A stretch of 31,873 nt of DNA from a virus. This document shows positions 20,095 through 31,873 of this stretch, one piece after another; within the stretch, counting starts at the first letter, position 1, and each line of letters begins with the position of its first letter. The position numbers and the translations under genes were made by a program. The notes under the pieces were generated by a model that saw only the letters and a program-made list of their open reading frames with translations, was not told where the DNA came from and ran no database searches. Where the stretch lies: positions 1-31,873 of IMG/VR virus record IMGVR_UViG_3300020415_000001; one strand, written 5' to 3'.

Positions 20095-20278
20095 ACTCGA
20101 TTACCTCTTCTGCTAGGACCATGTTATGATCGTAAGTAGCGACGATAGTCTCTACACCCCTACGCTGAACAGTCTCCAGCCACACGAGGTCCTCGCCGAT
20201 ACGGACAGGGTACCAAGCGAACCAATCGTTCCACTGGGTCTTGTCTTTCTTTTGGGTCTTACGTTTACTGATTTTCAT
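20069..20278 (-). CDS. Small basic/Trp-rich protein of a type common in T7-like phages
   Basis: The 69-residue product has a basic N-terminal tail (MKISKRKTQKKDK) and the segment WNDWFAWYPVRIGEDLVWLETVQRR, then a strand TIVATYDHN. Similar short WYPV-R-containing proteins recur in phages of proteobacteria; none has a function known to me. The ribosome site AAGGA is 8 nt before the ATG. It lies between the DUF5664-type protein and the HD hydrolase and overlaps both. Confidence 0.72.
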   Translation of the reverse strand: MKISKRKTQKKDKTQWNDWFAWYPVRIGEDLVWLETVQRRGVETIVATYDHNMVLAEEVIEYEYRSKTD

Positions 20279-20630
20279 TTTGCTGTTCCTTGATCAAGAG
20301 TTCGAGACGCGCGAGGGCGTTCCATGCGGCATGGGCAGCATGTAGAAGTCCACTATCAGGGTCCAGAACTTCTCCCGATCCTTCGTATCCAAGGTGTCGT
20401 ACCATTGCATCAGAGTATCGGTTATACCCGTCGTCAACTCCACGCCATCCGTTCCATTCGTACTTACTAGCTCCGAAAGCGGAGACTTCGGCAACTGCGC
20501 TAATTGCCCGAGGGAAGTAAGAAACTGCCCCCCTAAATACTGGAGATTTGCCTCCGTCATACTTGATTGCACCCTTGGCGACGTCTTCCGCCTTGTCATT
20601 AGTAAATTCCTTAGCTACCGTAGTTGACAT
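20265..20630 (-). CDS. dATP/dGTP diphosphohydrolase-like (DUF5664 / MazZ-type)
   Basis: The 121-residue product has the family pattern IKYDGGKSPVFRG (~22-34), a helix with ISAVAEVSAFGASKYEWNGWRG (~43-64), NRYSDAMVRHL (~69-79), and DSGLLHAAHAAWNALARLELL (~92-112). This all-alpha family related to MazG includes MazZ of cyanophage S-2L, which hydrolyses dGTP and dATP to monophosphates. Acid and His residues of the conserved helices (E48, D73, H78, H97) are present. Its role here is probably to adjust deoxynucleotide pools together with MazG-like and HD enzymes. The start overlaps the preceding 53-residue gene by 20 nt. Confidence 0.78.
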   Translation of the reverse strand: MSTTVAKEFTNDKAEDVAKGAIKYDGGKSPVFRGAVSYFPRAISAVAEVSAFGASKYEWNGWRGVDDGYNRYSDAMVRHLGYEGSGEVLDPDSGLLHAAHAAWNALARLELLIKEQQNENQ

Positions 20631-23536: not shown

Positions 23537-24214
23537 TTAGAAGGGGATGTCGTCGTCAAGGTCCTCAGGAGTGTCCTCCTTAACCTTGGTAGTCTTCTTA
23601 GGTGCAGCCTTAGCCTTCTTCGGCTTCGTCTCACCCTTCTCTGCATCCATAGCACCGAACTCGTCAGTCTCGTAACCTACGAGATCAGTAACTCGGACAG
23701 CAAGGACCCAGATACTCTTCTTCTTACCCTTACCCCAGTCTACGATCTTAAGCTTGAGGTCAGCCTTAGAGCCGTTACCGATAAGTCGGTCTTCCGGCCA
23801 CTGTTCATTGTCCTCGTCGTAGATACGGATGGGGGCGTTCTTCTCACCTTCGTAGTTCAACTCAGGCTTACGGAGAACAAGGAAGCGACCCTTGTCAGGG
23901 TTCTTCGCGTCTTCCTTTTCTTTCAGTCGGTCGAGGAGGCCCTCTTCCTTAAGGAACTCAGTGTCCTCAGGTTCGAACTCCATCGTCCACTCTTTGGCAG
24001 TACCCTCGTAGTTGTTGGTGAGGGCACGTTCGCCTACGATCTTTGGCCAAAACAGGCGGCCACTTGCGAAAACTGTTTTCGATTCCATCTTATCTTTTCT
24101 CTTTTCAATTTTCTTTTGGTTTGCCCATCGACGGGCTTTAGCGTAAGGTGAGTAATAGTCTATTGGTCTTTCCCAGTAGAACTCACTCATGTCGTCGAAG
24201 TCTATGTAATCCAT
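23537..24214 (-). CDS. Single-stranded DNA-binding protein, T7 gp2.5-like
   Basis: The 225-residue product has a core OB-fold region (~45-190). VFASGRLFWPKIVGE, the FLVLRKPELN strand, and DRLIGNGSKADLKLKIVDW followed by IWVLAVRVTDLVGYE parallel T7 gp2.5 (IIGGGSKLKVKYSL...). A Lys-rich linker and an acidic tail end in DDDIPF; the C-terminal aromatic residue is the docking element for polymerase and helicase in T7. From ATG 24214 it has a 42-residue N-terminal extension rich in Tyr/Trp/Lys not found in gp2.5; Met43 (24088) would give the minimal SSB. The first ATG is favoured because TAAGGAG (spacing 3) and a strong promoter lie directly upstream. Confidence 0.85.
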   Translation of the reverse strand: MDYIDFDDMSEFYWERPIDYYSPYAKARRWANQKKIEKRKDKMESKTVFASGRLFWPKIVGERALTNNYEGTAKEWTMEFEPEDTEFLKEEGLLDRLKEKEDAKNPDKGRFLVLRKPELNYEGEKNAPIRIYDEDNEQWPEDRLIGNGSKADLKLKIVDWGKGKKKSIWVLAVRVTDLVGYETDEFGAMDAEKGETKPKKAKAAPKKTTKVKEDTPEDLDDDIPF

Positions 24215-26593: not shown

Positions 26594-28225
26594 TTACTCC
26601 TTCATGTCATCAAACTCGTGGCCCGTGTTGGTACCACCGTGTTCGTACTCATAAGCTAGGTCAGCCGACAACTCATCAAGACGTCCAGTAGTCTCGTTGT
26701 AGTGAAGCCAGCAAGCGGGACCAGTACGGCCATACTCACGGTTCTTCTCTACGGTAAGACGAGTGATATTACGACGCCATTCGTTGAGTTCTTTCTTGTC
26801 GCGTTCAAGACGGATGACAACGTTAGCCACTTGTTCCGGTCCTGCTGATCCGCGCACCTGACCTTGACGGTTGATGTGAATGACACAGAACACAGAAATG
26901 TCTAGGTTCATTGTCAGTGTCTTGATCTTCGTAGAAATTTCATCTAGCTGTTTTCGTTCATCACCTGATTGGTCTGACACAATGATAGAAAGGTGGTCAA
27001 CCATGATGTACTTACAACCAAGCGCTGCCATGTGACGGATTTTGGCAAGAACAACATCAATGTCGTTGCTACCGAAGTGATCCCAGATGACAACTCGACT
27101 AGTGTTAATGACCTCGTCATAAGCCTTCTCCAGTTCTTCCTCTGTGCGTTCAACATCTGGGAAGTGGTAAGGTTTGTCGTTATGGATCGACATAAGACCA
27201 AGGGCAAGCTTACGTTTAGGCTCTTCAAGGTGAAGAAACCCTACACCGATGTCCTCTTTCATAAGGTCTTCGTTAAAAAGGAGCGAGTATTCGATCTCTT
27301 TCATCACACTTGTCTTACCAACACCAGTGTCAGCAGTCAGTAGGACAAGTTCACTAGTCCGAACACCGTAAGTCTTCTCGTTAAGGCCCTTCCAAGGGTA
27401 CGGAACGGACCTCGGCTCGACGTACTTGAGTACTTCATCCCGTAGACGGGCGTCTGAGCCTAGCTGGATGCCATCTGGCATGTAAGTGGGGGCACGGTAC
27501 CACTCGTCCACATAATCCTTTCCTTGGCCGTTCAGGAGGTACTCGTTGGCATCCTTGAACTTGGACAGTTTGAGAATCTTAACCTTGCCGGGGTCAAACA
27601 GGATGGCACACTCCTTAGCGGCCTTCTGTCCGGGGTCGTCGTTGTCGAAGTTGAAGATGATTGTGTCGAACGAGTTGAGGTACTCGAAATTATCAACCAC
27701 TTCCTTCTTGGCACTGGACGCACTCATCACACCTACGTTGGGGTAACGAGAACCAGTAATCTGAAAGGCAGCCATCGCGTCGTAGAAGCCCTCGGTCACA
27801 GTGATCGAGCGCCCACCCTCAGGGAAAGAGTTCTGTCCGAAGAGTTTGGTACCGCTGATGGGTCCTTCGGTCTTGAACTTCTTGTCCTCGTAACGGACTT
27901 GGTTAGCTACGTGCTGGTTGTCTTGCGAGAACTTAGGGAAGACAGCCTCGATAGGGTTGTCGTCCTTCTGGCTCACAGACACTTGATACTTAGCCACACT
28001 GGTAGCGTCGATACCCCTCGACTTAATACCCGGCATCTTGATAGCGGGTAGAGGGATGATGTTAGTTGAACTTTTCTTTTCCACTTTAGCGACGCCTCCT
28101 TTATTGTTATAGTTCTTGTGGTAGTCGCAATCAAACCCGAAGCAATGTTCGTGGTCGTTGTAAATTCCTAGGTTGTCCTCACTACCACACTTTGGACAGG
28201 TGTCGTGACGGACGAATGTACTCAT
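26594..28225 (-). CDS. Primase-helicase, T7 gp4-like
   Basis: The 543-residue product has an N-terminal zinc motif (C10, C13, C28, C33). A TOPRIM-type primase domain follows, with E145 (ITVTEGFYDAMAA) and D194/D196 (FNFDNDD). The C-terminal RecA-like DnaB-family helicase has Walker A ADTGVGKTS (K304), a glutamate in FLHLEEPKRK, Walker B YIMVDHLSII, and CVIHINRQGQVRGSAG near the hexamer-interface loop. It ends in an acidic tail (FDDMKE), which in T7 contacts the polymerase. It unwinds the fork and lays down RNA primers for the adjacent polymerase. The start overlaps the phosphoesterase stop by ATGA. Confidence 0.94.
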   Translation of the reverse strand: MSTFVRHDTCPKCGSEDNLGIYNDHEHCFGFDCDYHKNYNNKGGVAKVEKKSSTNIIPLPAIKMPGIKSRGIDATSVAKYQVSVSQKDDNPIEAVFPKFSQDNQHVANQVRYEDKKFKTEGPISGTKLFGQNSFPEGGRSITVTEGFYDAMAAFQITGSRYPNVGVMSASSAKKEVVDNFEYLNSFDTIIFNFDNDDPGQKAAKECAILFDPGKVKILKLSKFKDANEYLLNGQGKDYVDEWYRAPTYMPDGIQLGSDARLRDEVLKYVEPRSVPYPWKGLNEKTYGVRTSELVLLTADTGVGKTSVMKEIEYSLLFNEDLMKEDIGVGFLHLEEPKRKLALGLMSIHNDKPYHFPDVERTEEELEKAYDEVINTSRVVIWDHFGSNDIDVVLAKIRHMAALGCKYIMVDHLSIIVSDQSGDERKQLDEISTKIKTLTMNLDISVFCVIHINRQGQVRGSAGPEQVANVVIRLERDKKELNEWRRNITRLTVEKNREYGRTGPACWLHYNETTGRLDELSADLAYEYEHGGTNTGHEFDDMKE

Positions 28226-28806
28226 ACAGTAGGCAGACCTCTCTCTTCAAGGATTTCGTTAAGTAGTTTAGGTCGGAAGTTGGTACGCTCGACGCAAGCA
28301 CAGTAGTATCGTTCATCTTCTACTGTCTCTGTTAGGTCTTCGTACGTAGGATTACCTTTCTCCGTGTGTCCATCACGCCTTACCGCTCCATCATGGAGGT
28401 GGCCGTGAATGTTCAAACCCCACCGTTCAAGACTGTCAGGGTGAAGAGGTACGTGCGACATAACAAAACCCTTCCGTTGTACGTAGCCTCGAACGTCGTC
28501 AAAGACGTCGAAGTACTTACGCATCTTAGGGGGTTCGTGGTTACCCGGTACTAAGACTTTACGACCTTTCAATCGGGACACAGCGTCTCGCATTCGATTA
28601 GCGTTGAACGCCACGTCTCCGAGGATGTACACACGGTCTTGATCAGACACAAGTTCGTTGTACATAGAGATCAAGTCTTCCGTCATTTTACCTACATCAT
28701 CCCAAGGACGAAGGGGGTCACCTTTGTAGTCCCTAAACTTGACGATGTTGGCGTGATAAAAGTGAGGGTCTGAATAGACCCAAACTTTGTAAGGTTTCTT
28801 ACTCAT
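28222..28806 (-). CDS. Metallophosphoesterase (calcineurin-like)
   Basis: The 194-residue product has the five-block signature of the superfamily: D13-x-H15 (YSDPHF), D64 (YILGDVAF), N89-H90 (VPGNHE), H118 (VMSHVPL), H134 and G135-H136-x-H138 (NIHGHLHDG). The bimetallic site hydrolyses phosphoesters; substrates may be nucleic-acid ends, cyclic nucleotides or phosphoproteins. Similar proteins are common in phages with unknown target. It overlaps the 51-residue membrane gene and the primase-helicase gene by 4 nt each. Confidence 0.88.
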   Translation of the reverse strand: MSKKPYKVWVYSDPHFYHANIVKFRDYKGDPLRPWDDVGKMTEDLISMYNELVSDQDRVYILGDVAFNANRMRDAVSRLKGRKVLVPGNHEPPKMRKYFDVFDDVRGYVQRKGFVMSHVPLHPDSLERWGLNIHGHLHDGAVRRDGHTEKGNPTYEDLTETVEDERYYCACVERTNFRPKLLNEILEERGLPTV

Positions 28807-28958
28807 CGACGACGAATCCAGTTAACAACGTCACGTCCCTGAGGTTGCGGGTCGGTCAACAGGAAGAAGGCCATCAGAAGACCCATAGCTGCGGCAGCAG
28901 GGATAGCTACAACCAGCCCTACGATAGTGTACAGAAGCTTGTTCATAAAGTTATTCAT
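28803..28958 (-). CDS. 51-residue membrane microprotein
   Basis: The frame starts at ATG 28958, with AGAGGA 8 nt upstream, and encodes MNNFMNKLLYTIVGLVVAIP, then AAAAMGLLMAFFLLTD and a basic C-terminal tail (WIRRR). One long or two short hydrophobic segments (residues ~7-34) suggest insertion into the inner membrane, with the Arg-rich tail in the cytoplasm. It overlaps the upstream gene by 8 nt and the phosphoesterase by 4 nt, strong evidence for coupled translation. Function is unknown. Confidence 0.65.
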   Translation of the reverse strand: MNNFMNKLLYTIVGLVVAIPAAAAMGLLMAFFLLTDPQPQGRDVVNWIRRR

Positions 28959-29199
28959 TTTCCGTTTCCTCTTTTGGTTTACGTGACAGCAACGAGTACA
29001 TAGTGTTCATTGCGTTGGCGTAGTCGTTGTCTTCTTCGACGATAACAAACGAATCATCATCGTCAGGTCGGGCGAACCCGTCACTGAACGCAGTGTCGAA
29101 TGCAATCTCAAGGCACTCGGTGCAAGGTTCGAAGTTGTTGATCTCTTTGTTCCACGAGATTTCCTTCTCGCTTAAGGCTTTGTCACAGATACTGCAACG
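28951..29199 (-). CDS. 82-residue zinc-knuckle-type protein
   Basis: Starting at ATG 29199 (AAAGGA 7 nt upstream), the product begins MRCSICDKALSEKEISWN. It has two CxxC pairs (C3/C6 and the pair in EPCTECLEIA, ~26-29), forming a likely single treble-clef or ribbon zinc site. The C-terminal part is acidic (RPDDDDSFVIVEEDNDY). An in-frame extension to 29337 exists but lies beyond the promoter and has no ribosome site. It is the first gene after the consensus promoter at 29255-29283, an expected position for an early host-takeover factor; that role is inference only. Confidence 0.7.
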   Translation of the reverse strand, partial: RCSICDKALSEKEISWNKEINNFEPCTECLEIAFDTAFSDGFARPDDDDSFVIVEEDNDYANAMNTMYSLLSRKPKEETENE

Positions 29200-29254
29200 C
29201 ATCGCTCTATCCTTTATTTCTGTATCTTGTTCATTGGGCTGCTCTTTCAAGTAT

Positions 29255-29283: not shown

Positions 29284-29304
29284 GGGTTTTTTAGTAACCC
29301 CTTG
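29281..29304. repeat. Imperfect inverted repeat overlapping promoter -35 element
   Basis: CAAGGGTT (29281-29288) and AACCCCTTG (29296-29304) are complementary with one bulged base and a 7-nt centre. The left arm overlaps the TTGACA box. It lacks a T-run on either strand and so is not a terminator; it could be an operator. It also overlaps the end of the 52-residue gene. Confidence 0.35.
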
Positions 29305-29449
29305 GAACTCCTCGGAGTTTAATACTGTGGCACTCAATGTTCTTGAGCTGGGTGGCTATGATCCTAGCGGTCAGAGGTTCTTTTGGTCCCGTAGTCCACA
29401 GGGAGGTACCTGTTGACCGTTTTTTGTAGGTGACTAACACCTTAAGCAT
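29291..29449 (-). CDS. 52-residue basic hypothetical protein
   Basis: The frame starts at ATG 29449, overlapping the previous stop by 8 nt, with AGGGAAAG about 10 nt upstream. It encodes MLKVLVTYKKRSTGTSLWTT, then GPKEPLTARIIATQLKNIEC, and a basic end (KLRGVPRGY). Alternating strand and helix patterns look protein-like, and the positive charge suggests nucleic-acid or acidic-protein binding. The C-terminal codons lie beside the -35 box of the next promoter. Function is unknown. Confidence 0.6.
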   Translation of the reverse strand: MLKVLVTYKKRSTGTSLWTTGPKEPLTARIIATQLKNIECHSIKLRGVPRGY

Positions 29450-29621
29450 CAGGCACTTTCCCTGTCATCAAGATAGTTTGGATGTCTTCCAGAGCCATTT
29501 CGTACCCCACCTGAAAATCACTGTCAGCGGGGTCGTTGTCGAACGTCTCAAGGGCGTTCCTTACGTAGTTACGCAAGGTGATGATACTCACTGGTACCAT
29601 TTTTGTTACGTTGTCGGTCAT
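29442..29621 (-). CDS. 59-residue hypothetical protein
   Basis: The frame starts at ATG 29621, with GGAGGA 7 nt upstream. It encodes MTDNVTKMVPVSIITLRNYV, then helical RNALETFDNDPADSDFQVGY and EMALEDIQTILMTGKVPDA. It appears all-helical and acidic. The strong ribosome site and the overlaps around it support a real gene. No recognised family. Confidence 0.65.
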   Translation of the reverse strand: MTDNVTKMVPVSIITLRNYVRNALETFDNDPADSDFQVGYEMALEDIQTILMTGKVPDA

Positions 29622-29686: not shown

Positions 29687-29815
29687 TTACTGAATACCTC
29701 CAAGGTTCCAAAGAGCGCGGATGTAAAGAGTCGCTTCAAATATTGAATACGATATGGCAACGACAAGTAGAGCGAGAGCACACCCCACTGTCCCGCTTCC
29801 GTTATTGTGCGACAT
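29687..29815 (-). CDS. 42-residue membrane microprotein after ATP-grasp
   Basis: The frame starts at ATG 29815, inside the ATP-grasp 3' end (14-nt overlap), with AAGGAG 10 nt upstream. A Gly/Asn-rich start (MSHNNGSGTVG) is followed by a transmembrane helix CALALLVVAISYSIFEATLYI and a short tail. A single-span protein tied by overlap to the ligase pair may anchor or act with them; this is inference. Confidence 0.6.
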   Translation of the reverse strand: MSHNNGSGTVGCALALLVVAISYSIFEATLYIRALWNLGGIQ

Positions 29816-30602
29816 TTTCAAAAAACTCCTTGTAGTCTGTGACTGTCGAACCTTCGAGGCCCGGAGCCGTGTTGATTTCCAAGACGTAAGCCTTGGCTTC
29901 ACTCTCGTTCCAGATGACATCGACTGCGCCGAAGTCCAGATCGAGTTCCTTGAGCACGTCCTTGGCAACCTTAAGCACACTGGCCGGAGGGTTGACGTCA
30001 GAGCGAGCGTAGATGAACCCGTTGGCGTGGTTACGAACCTGCCAGTTGGGGTCCGGGTGTTCGAGACGGCGCTTCTTCTGCTGGACAGAGATAACACTGT
30101 ACACTACTTCACCCTCCACTCCGATAGCCGTTGCAGTGCCGACACCGAAGTCAACCCAACGACGGCCTACGTGGACGCGGTACTCGTGCTTCTTCTTCAC
30201 GTACTCCGTGTAGAGAGAGCAAGGCACGAGAGAACTGCGATCAGCAGCCATAACGATACCAGCACCGCTGTGTCCTTGTAGAATTTGGCGGCAAACCACA
30301 GGGAAAGCATCCTCGGGTATATCTTCTTGGCTAGTCCAGAAACGCGGGAGGTAGTCTTTACCCGCCAGCTTTTCAAAGAATGCTCGCTTATTCGTAGCTT
30401 GTGCAAGTCTCTCTCCGTTGTTGTTCAGGGTAGCCCGAGAAGCCTCGGTACTGTTACCCCAGTTAATGATAACGTCAGAAGACCGAGGAACAAACTTGCT
30501 GTCCTCGACCTTCAACACCTTCCCGTTAAGGGCGGTCGCAAGAGCTTTCGCCCCGCGACTACCCTGTTTGTACGGGAGTACTCGTACTCTTCGGTTTACC
30601 AA
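29802..30602 (-). CDS. ATP-grasp carboxylate-amine ligase
   Basis: The 266-residue product starts at TTG 30602, overlapping the amidoligase stop by 7 nt; AAGGAG lies 7 nt upstream. ATP-grasp features: K73 (TNKRAFFEKLA), glycine-rich loop QGHSGAGIVM (~109-118), E133 (YTEYVKKK), Y141/R142 (HEYRVHV), D228 (FGAVDVIW), and metal ligands E242/N244 in YVLEINTAPGLEGSTV. Such enzymes activate a carboxylate as acyl-phosphate and join it to an amine, as in peptide or amino-acid ligation. With the adjacent amidoligase it forms a pair known from phages and thought to modify peptides, cell wall or proteins. No transmembrane segment. Confidence 0.88.
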   Translation of the reverse strand: MVNRRVRVLPYKQGSRGAKALATALNGKVLKVEDSKFVPRSSDVIINWGNSTEASRATLNNNGERLAQATNKRAFFEKLAGKDYLPRFWTSQEDIPEDAFPVVCRQILQGHSGAGIVMAADRSSLVPCSLYTEYVKKKHEYRVHVGRRWVDFGVGTATAIGVEGEVVYSVISVQQKKRRLEHPDPNWQVRNHANGFIYARSDVNPPASVLKVAKDVLKELDLDFGAVDVIWNESEAKAYVLEINTAPGLEGSTVTDYKEFFENVAQ

Positions 30603-31666
30603 ATGTCGTCTCCTTCGTGTTGCGGAACAGGAGTGGCGATGGCCTGTTGTGCTTCTTCAAGATACTGCATGTATTCGTTGAAGTTGGTAGGCTGCTCATT
30701 AAGAGTCGTCTTCTTCTTGATCCGCCTCCCAAACGGGTCCATCTTCACCTTTTCCGGGTTGAACTTACTCCAGTCCCGACAGTAGCAAAGGTCCTGAGCG
30801 AGGCGAATACCTTCGTACACAGAGGCCATAACCTGCTGGTGGTCGAACCCCGACCCCTGTACAATCGTGTTGGTGTGAGGGCCAAGCACGGTGTTAAGGT
30901 AGTCGAGAGGGCCAGCACCGGAGAAACCTTCGACAACCAGACGAGGGTCAGTGTAGTCTCCACTGATCTCGTAGATACGCTGCAAGATACTTACCCAAGT
31001 CTTGATAGTCTCGGGGTCGGTGGCACCTCGCAACGAGCGTACCTCAATCGAGCCGAACTTAGTCAACGAGTGACAGTTAAGACCAGCGTAGTGCATACCC
31101 TGAGAGGGTAGGTCCTTGCCGTCGCTTGCAATGAAGTCACGAATCTGGGCGACGATGTTCGTAGCGTCCTTGGAACGCAAACAGAACAGGTTGCCGACCC
31201 GGTGTTCACCACACCACTCAGTGAGGAGTTCCTCGACAGAGAAGTACAGAGCAAGGAAAGAGGTCAACCTGTTGAGGTGCCAGCCCTGTGCGTTCAAGTG
31301 GACGTGAACCGAGGTACGGTTGCTGTCGTCCAGCTTCGAACCGTAGTCCTTGAACATCTTCCACAGATCGTCGAGAGCCTTGTCAACCTCCGAGAACTTG
31401 ATAGGTCGTGCCAAGATGTACTCAGCGTTGTCCTGTCCACGGAGAGAACCGTCAGGCGTGTACTTCCACTGCTTGGGAATGAGCTTCTCGTCTTTCTCGG
31501 TGCCGTAAGGGGAACCCTTCGGGAACTTGTTGCCTTCGACCTCGATCTCAAGGCCCACGTCACCCTTGGTAGTGCGGTGACCCATCATAGCACCAATGTT
31601 GTAGCTGGGTTCGTCCTTCTCAGCGGAACGCTTGAAGAAGTCGGACGGAATCGGTACTCTACTCAT
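30596..31666 (-). CDS. Amidoligase (glutamine synthetase-fold COOH-NH2 ligase)
   Basis: The 356-residue product starts at ATG 31666, chosen because AAGGA lies 8 nt upstream; an in-frame ATG at 31732 overlaps the preceding gene. Motifs of the amidoligase_2 family are present: GLEIEVEG (metal/ATP-binding glutamates, near 38-45), TPDGSLR...AEYILARP (~71-89), SVHVHLN (~119-125), YAGLN (~193-197) and GSIEVRSLRG (~205-214). These place ATP and the substrate carboxylate in a glutamine-synthetase-like pocket. It probably forms an amide bond between an amino acid and an unknown acceptor, with the downstream ATP-grasp enzyme adding or processing another residue. The C-terminal ~80 residues have no clear motif. 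Confidence 0.86.
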   Translation of the reverse strand: MSRVPIPSDFFKRSAEKDEPSYNIGAMMGHRTTKGDVGLEIEVEGNKFPKGSPYGTEKDEKLIPKQWKYTPDGSLRGQDNAEYILARPIKFSEVDKALDDLWKMFKDYGSKLDDSNRTSVHVHLNAQGWHLNRLTSFLALYFSVEELLTEWCGEHRVGNLFCLRSKDATNIVAQIRDFIASDGKDLPSQGMHYAGLNCHSLTKFGSIEVRSLRGATDPETIKTWVSILQRIYEISGDYTDPRLVVEGFSGAGPLDYLNTVLGPHTNTIVQGSGFDHQQVMASVYEGIRLAQDLCYCRDWSKFNPEKVKMDPFGRRIKKKTTLNEQPTNFNEYMQYLEEAQQAIATPVPQHEGDDIW

Positions 31667-31691
31667 TCTCAGTTTCCTTCTTTCTTGTAGT

Positions 31692-31873
31692 TTATTTCTG
31701 AATCTCGATAGTTTCAAAGACACCCAGTTCATCGGTTACCTCTCGGCAGTGGCCGTAACCACGAGCCAGCACCAGTCGAGAGAGGTCGCCGTTGGGCATG
31801 AACCCTACCACGTCTTCCTTGTAAGCGAGGAACATCATGTCGAGAGGTCCCCGCAGGATTGCAAACTCGCGGT
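31692..31873 (-). CDS. Partial gene upstream of amidoligase (C-terminal end only)
   Basis: An open frame enters from the right edge and ends at 31692 after 59 visible residues, including FAILRGPLDMMFLAYKEDVV, then GFMPNGDLSRLVLARGYGHC and an acidic end. It is 25 nt upstream of the amidoligase start, in the same operon. Known phage amidoligase/ATP-grasp pairs are sometimes accompanied by a class II glutamine amidotransferase; the visible part is too short to tell whether this is one. Confidence 0.6.
   Translation of the reverse strand, partial: REFAILRGPLDMMFLAYKEDVVGFMPNGDLSRLVLARGYGHCREVTDELGVFETIEIQK

Follow-up and report, generated by a model that had tools for sequence, protein, structure and literature searches.

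Genomic Setting of the Locus

Two genes for ligases of different folds, an amidoligase and an ATP-grasp protein, lie together at the right end of a virus record (IMG/VR IMGVR_UViG_3300020415_000001), the whole of which (31,873 bases) was analyzed here and is called the window. To what do these two genes belong, and what could their products make? A preliminary description, drawn from the sequence alone, had seen in them a coupled pair accompanied by a membrane microprotein, and had proposed peptide or envelope modification as a possible role.

The minus strand of the window carries the replication genes (ribonucleotide reductase, nucleotide pyrophosphohydrolase, dNMP phosphatase, exonuclease, endonuclease, Cas4-like exonuclease, DNA polymerase and primase/helicase), and the plus strand carries those for structure and lysis. 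In the direction of transcription, the two ligase genes precede the primase block (Table 1). The right edge cuts the next gene upstream, here called HYP, and the genes that lie further upstream in this phage fall outside the window. A gene for a calcineurin-like phosphoesterase (PF00149, phrog_547), which has matches in 39 of 162 loci, is located between the ligase genes and the primase. Elsewhere on the minus strand, one short ORF carries the N-terminal domain of a dATP/dGTP diphosphohydrolase according to Pfam; the PHROG that it matches best bears the name “endolysin; inhibits RNA polymerase”, which is probably misleading as a family label. Another ORF (225 aa), devoid of PHROG match at E 0.001, has an acidic tail ending in DDDIPF, which we take to resemble those of single-stranded DNA-binding proteins. 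On the plus strand, an ORF of 1774 residues with a TTG start has no Pfam match at E 0.01 over its first 632 residues.

Table 1. Features of the window discussed in the text, with the evidence or remark attached to each.
Feature	Position	Strand	Evidence or remark
ORF of 1774 residues	9604-14928	+	TTG start
dATP/dGTP diphosphohydrolase N-terminal domain	20265-20630	-	Pfam
225-aa ORF with acidic tail	23537-24214	-	
Calcineurin-like phosphoesterase	28222-28806	-	PF00149, phrog_547
Small acidic Zn-ribbon protein (MRCSICD...)	28951-29202	-	start is an internal ATG of a 128-aa ORF
52-aa ORF	29291-29449	-	match in L001
59-aa ORF	29442-29621	-	match in L001
42-aa hydrophobic ORF, not a conserved component	29687..29815	-	tblastn, neighbor count
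RimK-like ATP-grasp ligase, 266 aa	29802..30602	-	TTG start; phrog_2599, PDB profile matches
Amidoligase_2 (GS/GCS-fold carboxylate-amine ligase), 356 aa	30596..31666	-	Pfam, PHROG, alignment, AlphaFold model
HYP, C-terminal 59 residues	31692..31871	-	cut by the right end of the window; homology to L001:5280-6041

The Two Ligases

The amidoligase matches PF12224 (33.6 bits against a cut-off of 22, E 4.7e-8 by direct hmmscan) and phrog_7469 (E 1e-58). Its reading frame stays open to an ATG at 31732 (ORF 30596-31732), which would make it overlap the upstream HYP gene by 41 nt, but the ATG at 31666 is the probable start on sequence grounds, since it is preceded by an AAGGA-type ribosome site and agrees with the alignment of relatives. 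The catalytic motifs reported as intact in the preliminary description, GLEIEVEG and SVHVHLN, are both present, and, counting residues from ATG 31666, E40, E42, E44, H121, H123 and N125 are invariant across 66 sequences. With respect to the nearest relative, L001, whose amidoligase is 68% identical, the gene is under purifying selection (pS/pN 0.85/0.21). An AlphaFold model (pLDDT 89.2) has as its best structural matches YbdK, glutamate-cysteine ligase and glutamine synthetase (Foldseek E 2e-5), the best by Z being 1tt4 (Z 12.3, rmsd 4.2 A, 220 residues aligned), and all of the 50 structural matches listed belong to the GS/GCS superfamily. Model and alignment thus agree on a GS/GCS-type fold with acidic metal/ATP residues, as expected for Amidoligase_2. 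At the sequence level, a PDB search returned no significant match, and these enzymes resemble the model in fold but share only 10% sequence identity with it; their substrate is not transferable.

The ATP-grasp gene, whose TTG start is preceded by AAGGAG, overlaps the amidoligase gene by 7 nt, and the coupling announced earlier is thus directly visible in the DNA. Its product matches phrog_2599 (E 1e-65), whereas its Pfam matches (Dala_Dala_lig_C, RimK) all fall below cut-off, with RimK at 16.8 bits against 21; judged by these scores, we file it only as a phrog_2599 ATP-grasp protein. Residues K72, E140, R142, K176, D228, E242 and N244, of which the last two had been singled out before, are invariant across 66 sequences, and the gene is under purifying selection relative to L001 (pS/pN 0.64/0.18). 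When its profile is compared to the PDB, RimK comes first, followed by MdnB-type and CdnC ATP-grasp ligases, D-Ala-D-Ala ligases and cyanophycin synthase (best match 7qys, E 6.8e-10), the RimK matches being stronger than the Ddl-type ones, while glutathione synthetase is absent among the 19 PDB sequences matched. The names MdnC and graspetide are our own assignment to PDB entries titled ATP grasp ligase. The protein is therefore like RimK alpha-L-glutamate ligases and graspetide ATP-grasp ligases in profile, although below the Pfam cut-off for RimK, and no link to ribosomal S6 or to a precursor peptide was found for it.

A Six-Gene Cassette

To place the two genes in context, IMG/VR was searched with profiles of both proteins, and the best 80 of 113 confirmed stretches were retained for the amidoligase and 80 of at least 510 for the ATP-grasp protein. 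All loci were then scanned with HMMs for seven components, each built from 3 to 7 seed sequences; because these seeds come from cassette-bearing phages, presence is more trustworthy than absence in distant phages. Co-occurrence counts consider only loci with enough flank and include near-duplicate contigs (e.g., L019/L020).

With few exceptions, the gene order in the amidoligase loci is C26/GATase-I (a class-I GATase/gamma-glutamyl hydrolase), GATase-II, COOH-NH2 ligase (PF14395, described by Pfam as phage phiEco32-like), HYP, amidoligase and ATP-grasp. Among the best 80 of 113 amidoligase loci, HYP is found in 74/74, the COOH-NH2 ligase in 68/68, GATase-II in 60/60 and GATase-I in 47/48, while a gamma-glutamylcyclotransferase (GGCT) is optional (14/35). 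In the same set, an ATP-grasp gene occurs somewhere in the locus in 42/42 cases and within 1.7 kb downstream in 66/72. The six remaining loci, as read from the gene-order listing, are L047, L052, L054, L055, L061 and L064, five of which have the ATP-grasp gene upstream instead, and the upstream flank of L061 is short. Conversely, among the ATP-grasp loci with 2.5 kb upstream (from the 80 of at least 510), 49 of 51 have the amidoligase (all but L140 and L154) and 47 of 51 have HYP. The comparison of gene neighborhoods proposed earlier hence bears out the pairing, and the idea that homologues might always occur without each other fails.

For this phage, the genes beyond HYP have to be sought in relatives. 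In L001, those upstream of the amidoligase are a Peptidase_C26/GATase (E 9e-24), a GATase_6 (E 4e-12), a COOH-NH2_lig (E 2e-8) and HYP, and the COOH-NH2 ligase, class-II GATase and C26/GATase-I are upstream in L001/L007 and L162 alike. GGCT was found neither among the hits in the window nor in the flanks of the closest relative, L007. From gene order and co-occurrence, the amidoligase and the ATP-grasp gene are thus predicted to be the tail of a cassette with six core genes and not an isolated pair, which keeps the known type recognized earlier from comparative genomics and replaces the pair by a larger set. Hydrophobic segments are rare in the cassette proteins (amidoligase 3/111, ATP-grasp 2/119, HYP 0/102, GATase-II 1/93, COOH-NH2 ligase 0/98, GATase-I 1/81), and this near absence of membrane segments points to a cytosolic site.

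The Gene Just Upstream

The preliminary description had noted a gene immediately upstream and suggested to check whether it encodes a class-II glutamine amidotransferase. The gene does exist, the window holding the C-terminus of a conserved protein whose full-length homologue in L001 (253 aa) has no Pfam match and corresponds to phrog_11055 (E 2e-15); it is thus not recognized as a GATase domain with an N-terminal cysteine. Because the window is cut inside HYP, the adjacent gene is HYP and not the class-II GATase, which relatives carry two genes further up.

A model of the L007 homologue (pLDDT 93.8) has no match in the PDB at E 0.001 or better; its best VIA hits (Z 4.6) are SH3-like domains (chromo, Tudor, CAP-Gly) of ~50-75 residues, too weak for a claim about the fold. 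Against viral models, it matches the CW02 homologue and a few uncharacterized phage proteins. Only R120, R124 and G129 are invariant (68 sequences), and no nucleophile is conserved, which led us to reject HYP as an enzyme. A carrier with a conserved C-terminus was rejected as well, the last residue varying among 18 residue types in 108 copies. By co-occurrence, HYP is an obligate cassette partner; judged by its model, it would be a small SH3-like-barrel protein that lacks a clear relative among solved structures.

Small Neighboring Proteins

The single-span membrane microprotein of the preliminary description corresponds to a 42-aa hydrophobic ORF. This ORF exists and shares 14 nt with the ATP-grasp gene; it is not conserved, with zero tblastn matches in 162 loci. 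Moreover, small hydrophobic ORFs are no commoner after the ATP-grasp gene (10/73) than after the amidoligase (13/77), so that this ORF was rejected as a cassette component. The neighboring ORFs of 20-59 residues had been put forward as potential substrates. All of them lie outside the cassette proper, and they do not behave as conserved substrates: those of 59, 52 and 51 aa match only the nearest relative, and that of 20 aa matches this relative plus one contig. As the 59- and 52-aa ORFs are conserved in L001 (69% and 45% identity, and in no other contig), they are probably real genes.

A further neighbor is a small acidic Zn-ribbon protein, belonging to a family with an average net charge of -14 that often follows the ATP-grasp gene, and which we liken to the amino-group carrier LysW. 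A scan for its N-terminal motif yielded 33 contig stretches, 15 of them without a family match. Family members were present in 18 contigs, 15 of which have an ATP-grasp gene just upstream; in two of the three others the Zn-ribbon gene is beside a relative of the primase of the window, without any cassette. The protein is also found in 3 of 23 cassette-free primase loci and, among the best 80 of 113 amidoligase loci, hardly occurs outside the clade nearest to the window. There is no LysW among its Pfam or PDB matches and no conserved C-terminus in the sequences compared. A LysW-like carrier for the ATP-grasp ligase, a tempting reading in view of the 15 contigs, is weakened by the occurrences beside the primase in cassette-free relatives, and a gene of the replication block appears more likely.

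Distribution and Published Precedents

Where the primase shares 48-81% identity with that of the window (contigs L194-L209), the cassette precedes it in 7/7 contigs with at least 4 kb upstream, against 0/23 of the contigs in which the primase is 38-41% identical, which indicates a core module of the clade of the window that is absent from the next clade. The same gene order is observed in the annotated phages CW02 and PA11, in two uncultured Zobellviridae records and, within a longer arrangement, in an E. coli phage. In Pseudomonas phage PA11 (NC_007808), gp005-gp008 are COOH-NH2 ligase, HYP, amidoligase and ATP-grasp, as in our loci, but the amidoligase is only 35% identical over 85% of the query.

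Such a set has been described before. In the available text of PMC5498523, a seven-gene “peptidoglycan modification cassette” is reported in RIO1-like and related podoviruses (PSA-HP1, RIO-1, CW02, PA11, tf, LUZ24, PaP3 and phiEco32, among others). There, as here, the ATP-grasp gene comes after the amidoligase, and the block, close to replication genes, also includes a gamma-glutamyl amidoligase/COOH-NH2 ligase, a GATase and a GGCT. By comparison, the window covers no more than the two final enzymes and a fragment of HYP, its small downstream genes differ, and no GGCT was seen in the flanks of L007. Excerpts of other papers use the same module name, peptidoglycan modification (PMC11945000), place the same genes in UFV-P2 (PMC3890496), or, for phages set alongside TC6, list putative genes for an ATP-grasp protein, an amidoligase, a COOH-NH2 ligase and an amidotransferase (PMC6209634); PMC11898732, in the part available, concerns another phage, JBD44. 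The cassette is therefore already known, its cell-wall role is conjectural, and the pair of the window, real, conserved and judged functional, is a probable part of it. Since the cassette had been described, the find is largely expected; what is added here are the co-occurrence counts, the recognition of the upstream gene as HYP together with a model of its fold, the dismissal of the microprotein as a component, and the limit of the clade that carries the cassette.

What the Cassette May Make

That the chemistry would be ATP-dependent amide ligation in the cytosol is a well-supported prediction, owing to the amidoligase fold, the ATP-grasp profile, the invariant motif residues and the near lack of hydrophobic segments. 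Our preferred reading, which we hold tentatively and a little below even chances, is that the pair forms the 3' end of a phage cassette building gamma-glutamyl-type amide bonds in the host cytosol, and that the stem peptide of the peptidoglycan precursor is altered mid-infection. In such a scheme, the COOH-NH2 ligase and the amidoligase would each convert a carboxylate into an acyl phosphate, in the manner of GCS/YbdK enzymes, and couple it with an amine, after which the RimK-like ATP-grasp ligase would add a further residue. The class-II GATase would draw on glutamine for ammonia or glutamyl groups, trimming or editing would fall to the C26 hydrolase and, where present, the GGCT, and HYP would present the substrate or scaffold the enzymes. 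The altered precursor might then affect superinfection or envelope stability.

In support of this reading come the order and co-occurrence of the cassette genes (in the best 80 of 113 amidoligase loci), the upstream families in the nearest relative, the GS/GCS fold, the proximity of the ATP-grasp protein to RimK and to graspetide ligases that act on peptides, and mid-infection expression in PaP3, for which the available part of PMC4707531 assigns ORF32-48 to the middle genes (class timing only), if PaP3 ORF numbers can be equated with protein numbers p44-p48, as we infer. The envelope or peptide modification suggested earlier is plausible. The substrate is the weak step, a best guess that rests on published conjecture: the name given in the accessible text of PMC5498523 and the proposal of cell-wall modification against superinfection for phiEco32, attributed to Iyer 2009 in an excerpt of PMC10580990. 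Against it, the literature found holds no biochemical evidence for a peptidoglycan substrate, nor, in the available text (including PMC7824862, PMC4431377, PMC3517423 and PMC11318856), a report of any tested substrate of the cassette; the Ddl-type matches are weaker than the RimK ones; and mid-infection expression is late for a superinfection block. The type of endolysin did not discriminate between cassette and cassette-free records (GH24 lysozyme 17/29 vs. 3/9; Amidase_2 0/29 vs. 0/9; Peptidase_M15_4 1/29 vs. 0/9, two of the nine cassette-free records, L262 and L268, showing only 3-4 kb upstream of the primase).

The structural matches of the amidoligase to YbdK, glutamate-cysteine ligase and bifunctional glutathione synthetase would also suit a small soluble gamma-glutamyl peptide akin to glutathione, made by a GCS-type and then an ATP-grasp ligase for redox, amine storage or signaling, and recycled by the GGCT and the C26 hydrolase, two families that do occur in the loci (14/35 and 47/48, best 80 of 113). 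A glutathione synthase gene is even annotated in the related phage set of PMC10945688, in the part available. Yet the ATP-grasp profile leads to RimK and graspetide ligases instead of glutathione synthetase among its 19 PDB sequences, and two GS/GCS-type ligases along with a class-II GATase exceed what glutathione needs, while the GGCT is optional, which leaves this product at about one chance in four.

Those same nearest solved sequences (RimK, MdnB/MdnC, CdnC), together with the invariant key residues, would fit ligases that modify a host or phage protein, either through a RimK-like addition of glutamyl or other residues, or by joining side chains, as graspetide ATP-grasps do. However, the cassette holds no conserved candidate substrate, as the HYP C-terminus varies and the small ORFs are not conserved, and the acidic Zn-ribbon neighbor also occurs in cassette-free relatives; we regard protein modification as rather unlikely. 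Somewhat less probable still is that HYP, with a fold so far missing from the PDB, serves specifically to present the substrate or as a scaffold, and that the six core proteins constitute one cytosolic assembly line for an undescribed gamma-glutamyl-type product, HYP-carried or free, other than peptidoglycan.

An auxiliary nitrogen or glutamine salvage set, delivering glutamate and ammonia for nucleotide synthesis, would account for the hydrolytic families (GATase-I-like, GATase-II and GGCT) and agrees with the nitrogen metabolism proposed for a related set in a planctomycete phage in the excerpt of PMC10945688, but three ATP-consuming ligases are obligate in the set, which argues for synthesis rather than salvage and makes this option improbable. 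Finally, a group built for attachment to phage DNA bases, as suggested in the preliminary description and within reach of ATP-dependent amide chemistry, is very improbable, given that none of the 20 window proteins scanned against PHROGs matches a base-modification family and that the nucleotide genes found are an ordinary ribonucleotide reductase, dNMP phosphatase, pyrophosphohydrolase and dATP/dGTP diphosphohydrolase.

Significance for the Podovirus Group

Whatever its product, a large group of podoviruses infecting several bacterial genera shares the cassette as a fixed core of six genes, and the counts show that what looked like a “pair of ligases” belongs to a defined set of six components, with HYP as an obligate partner. 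As related phages exist both with and without it, the cassette lends itself to clean deletion or expression tests in a laboratory phage.
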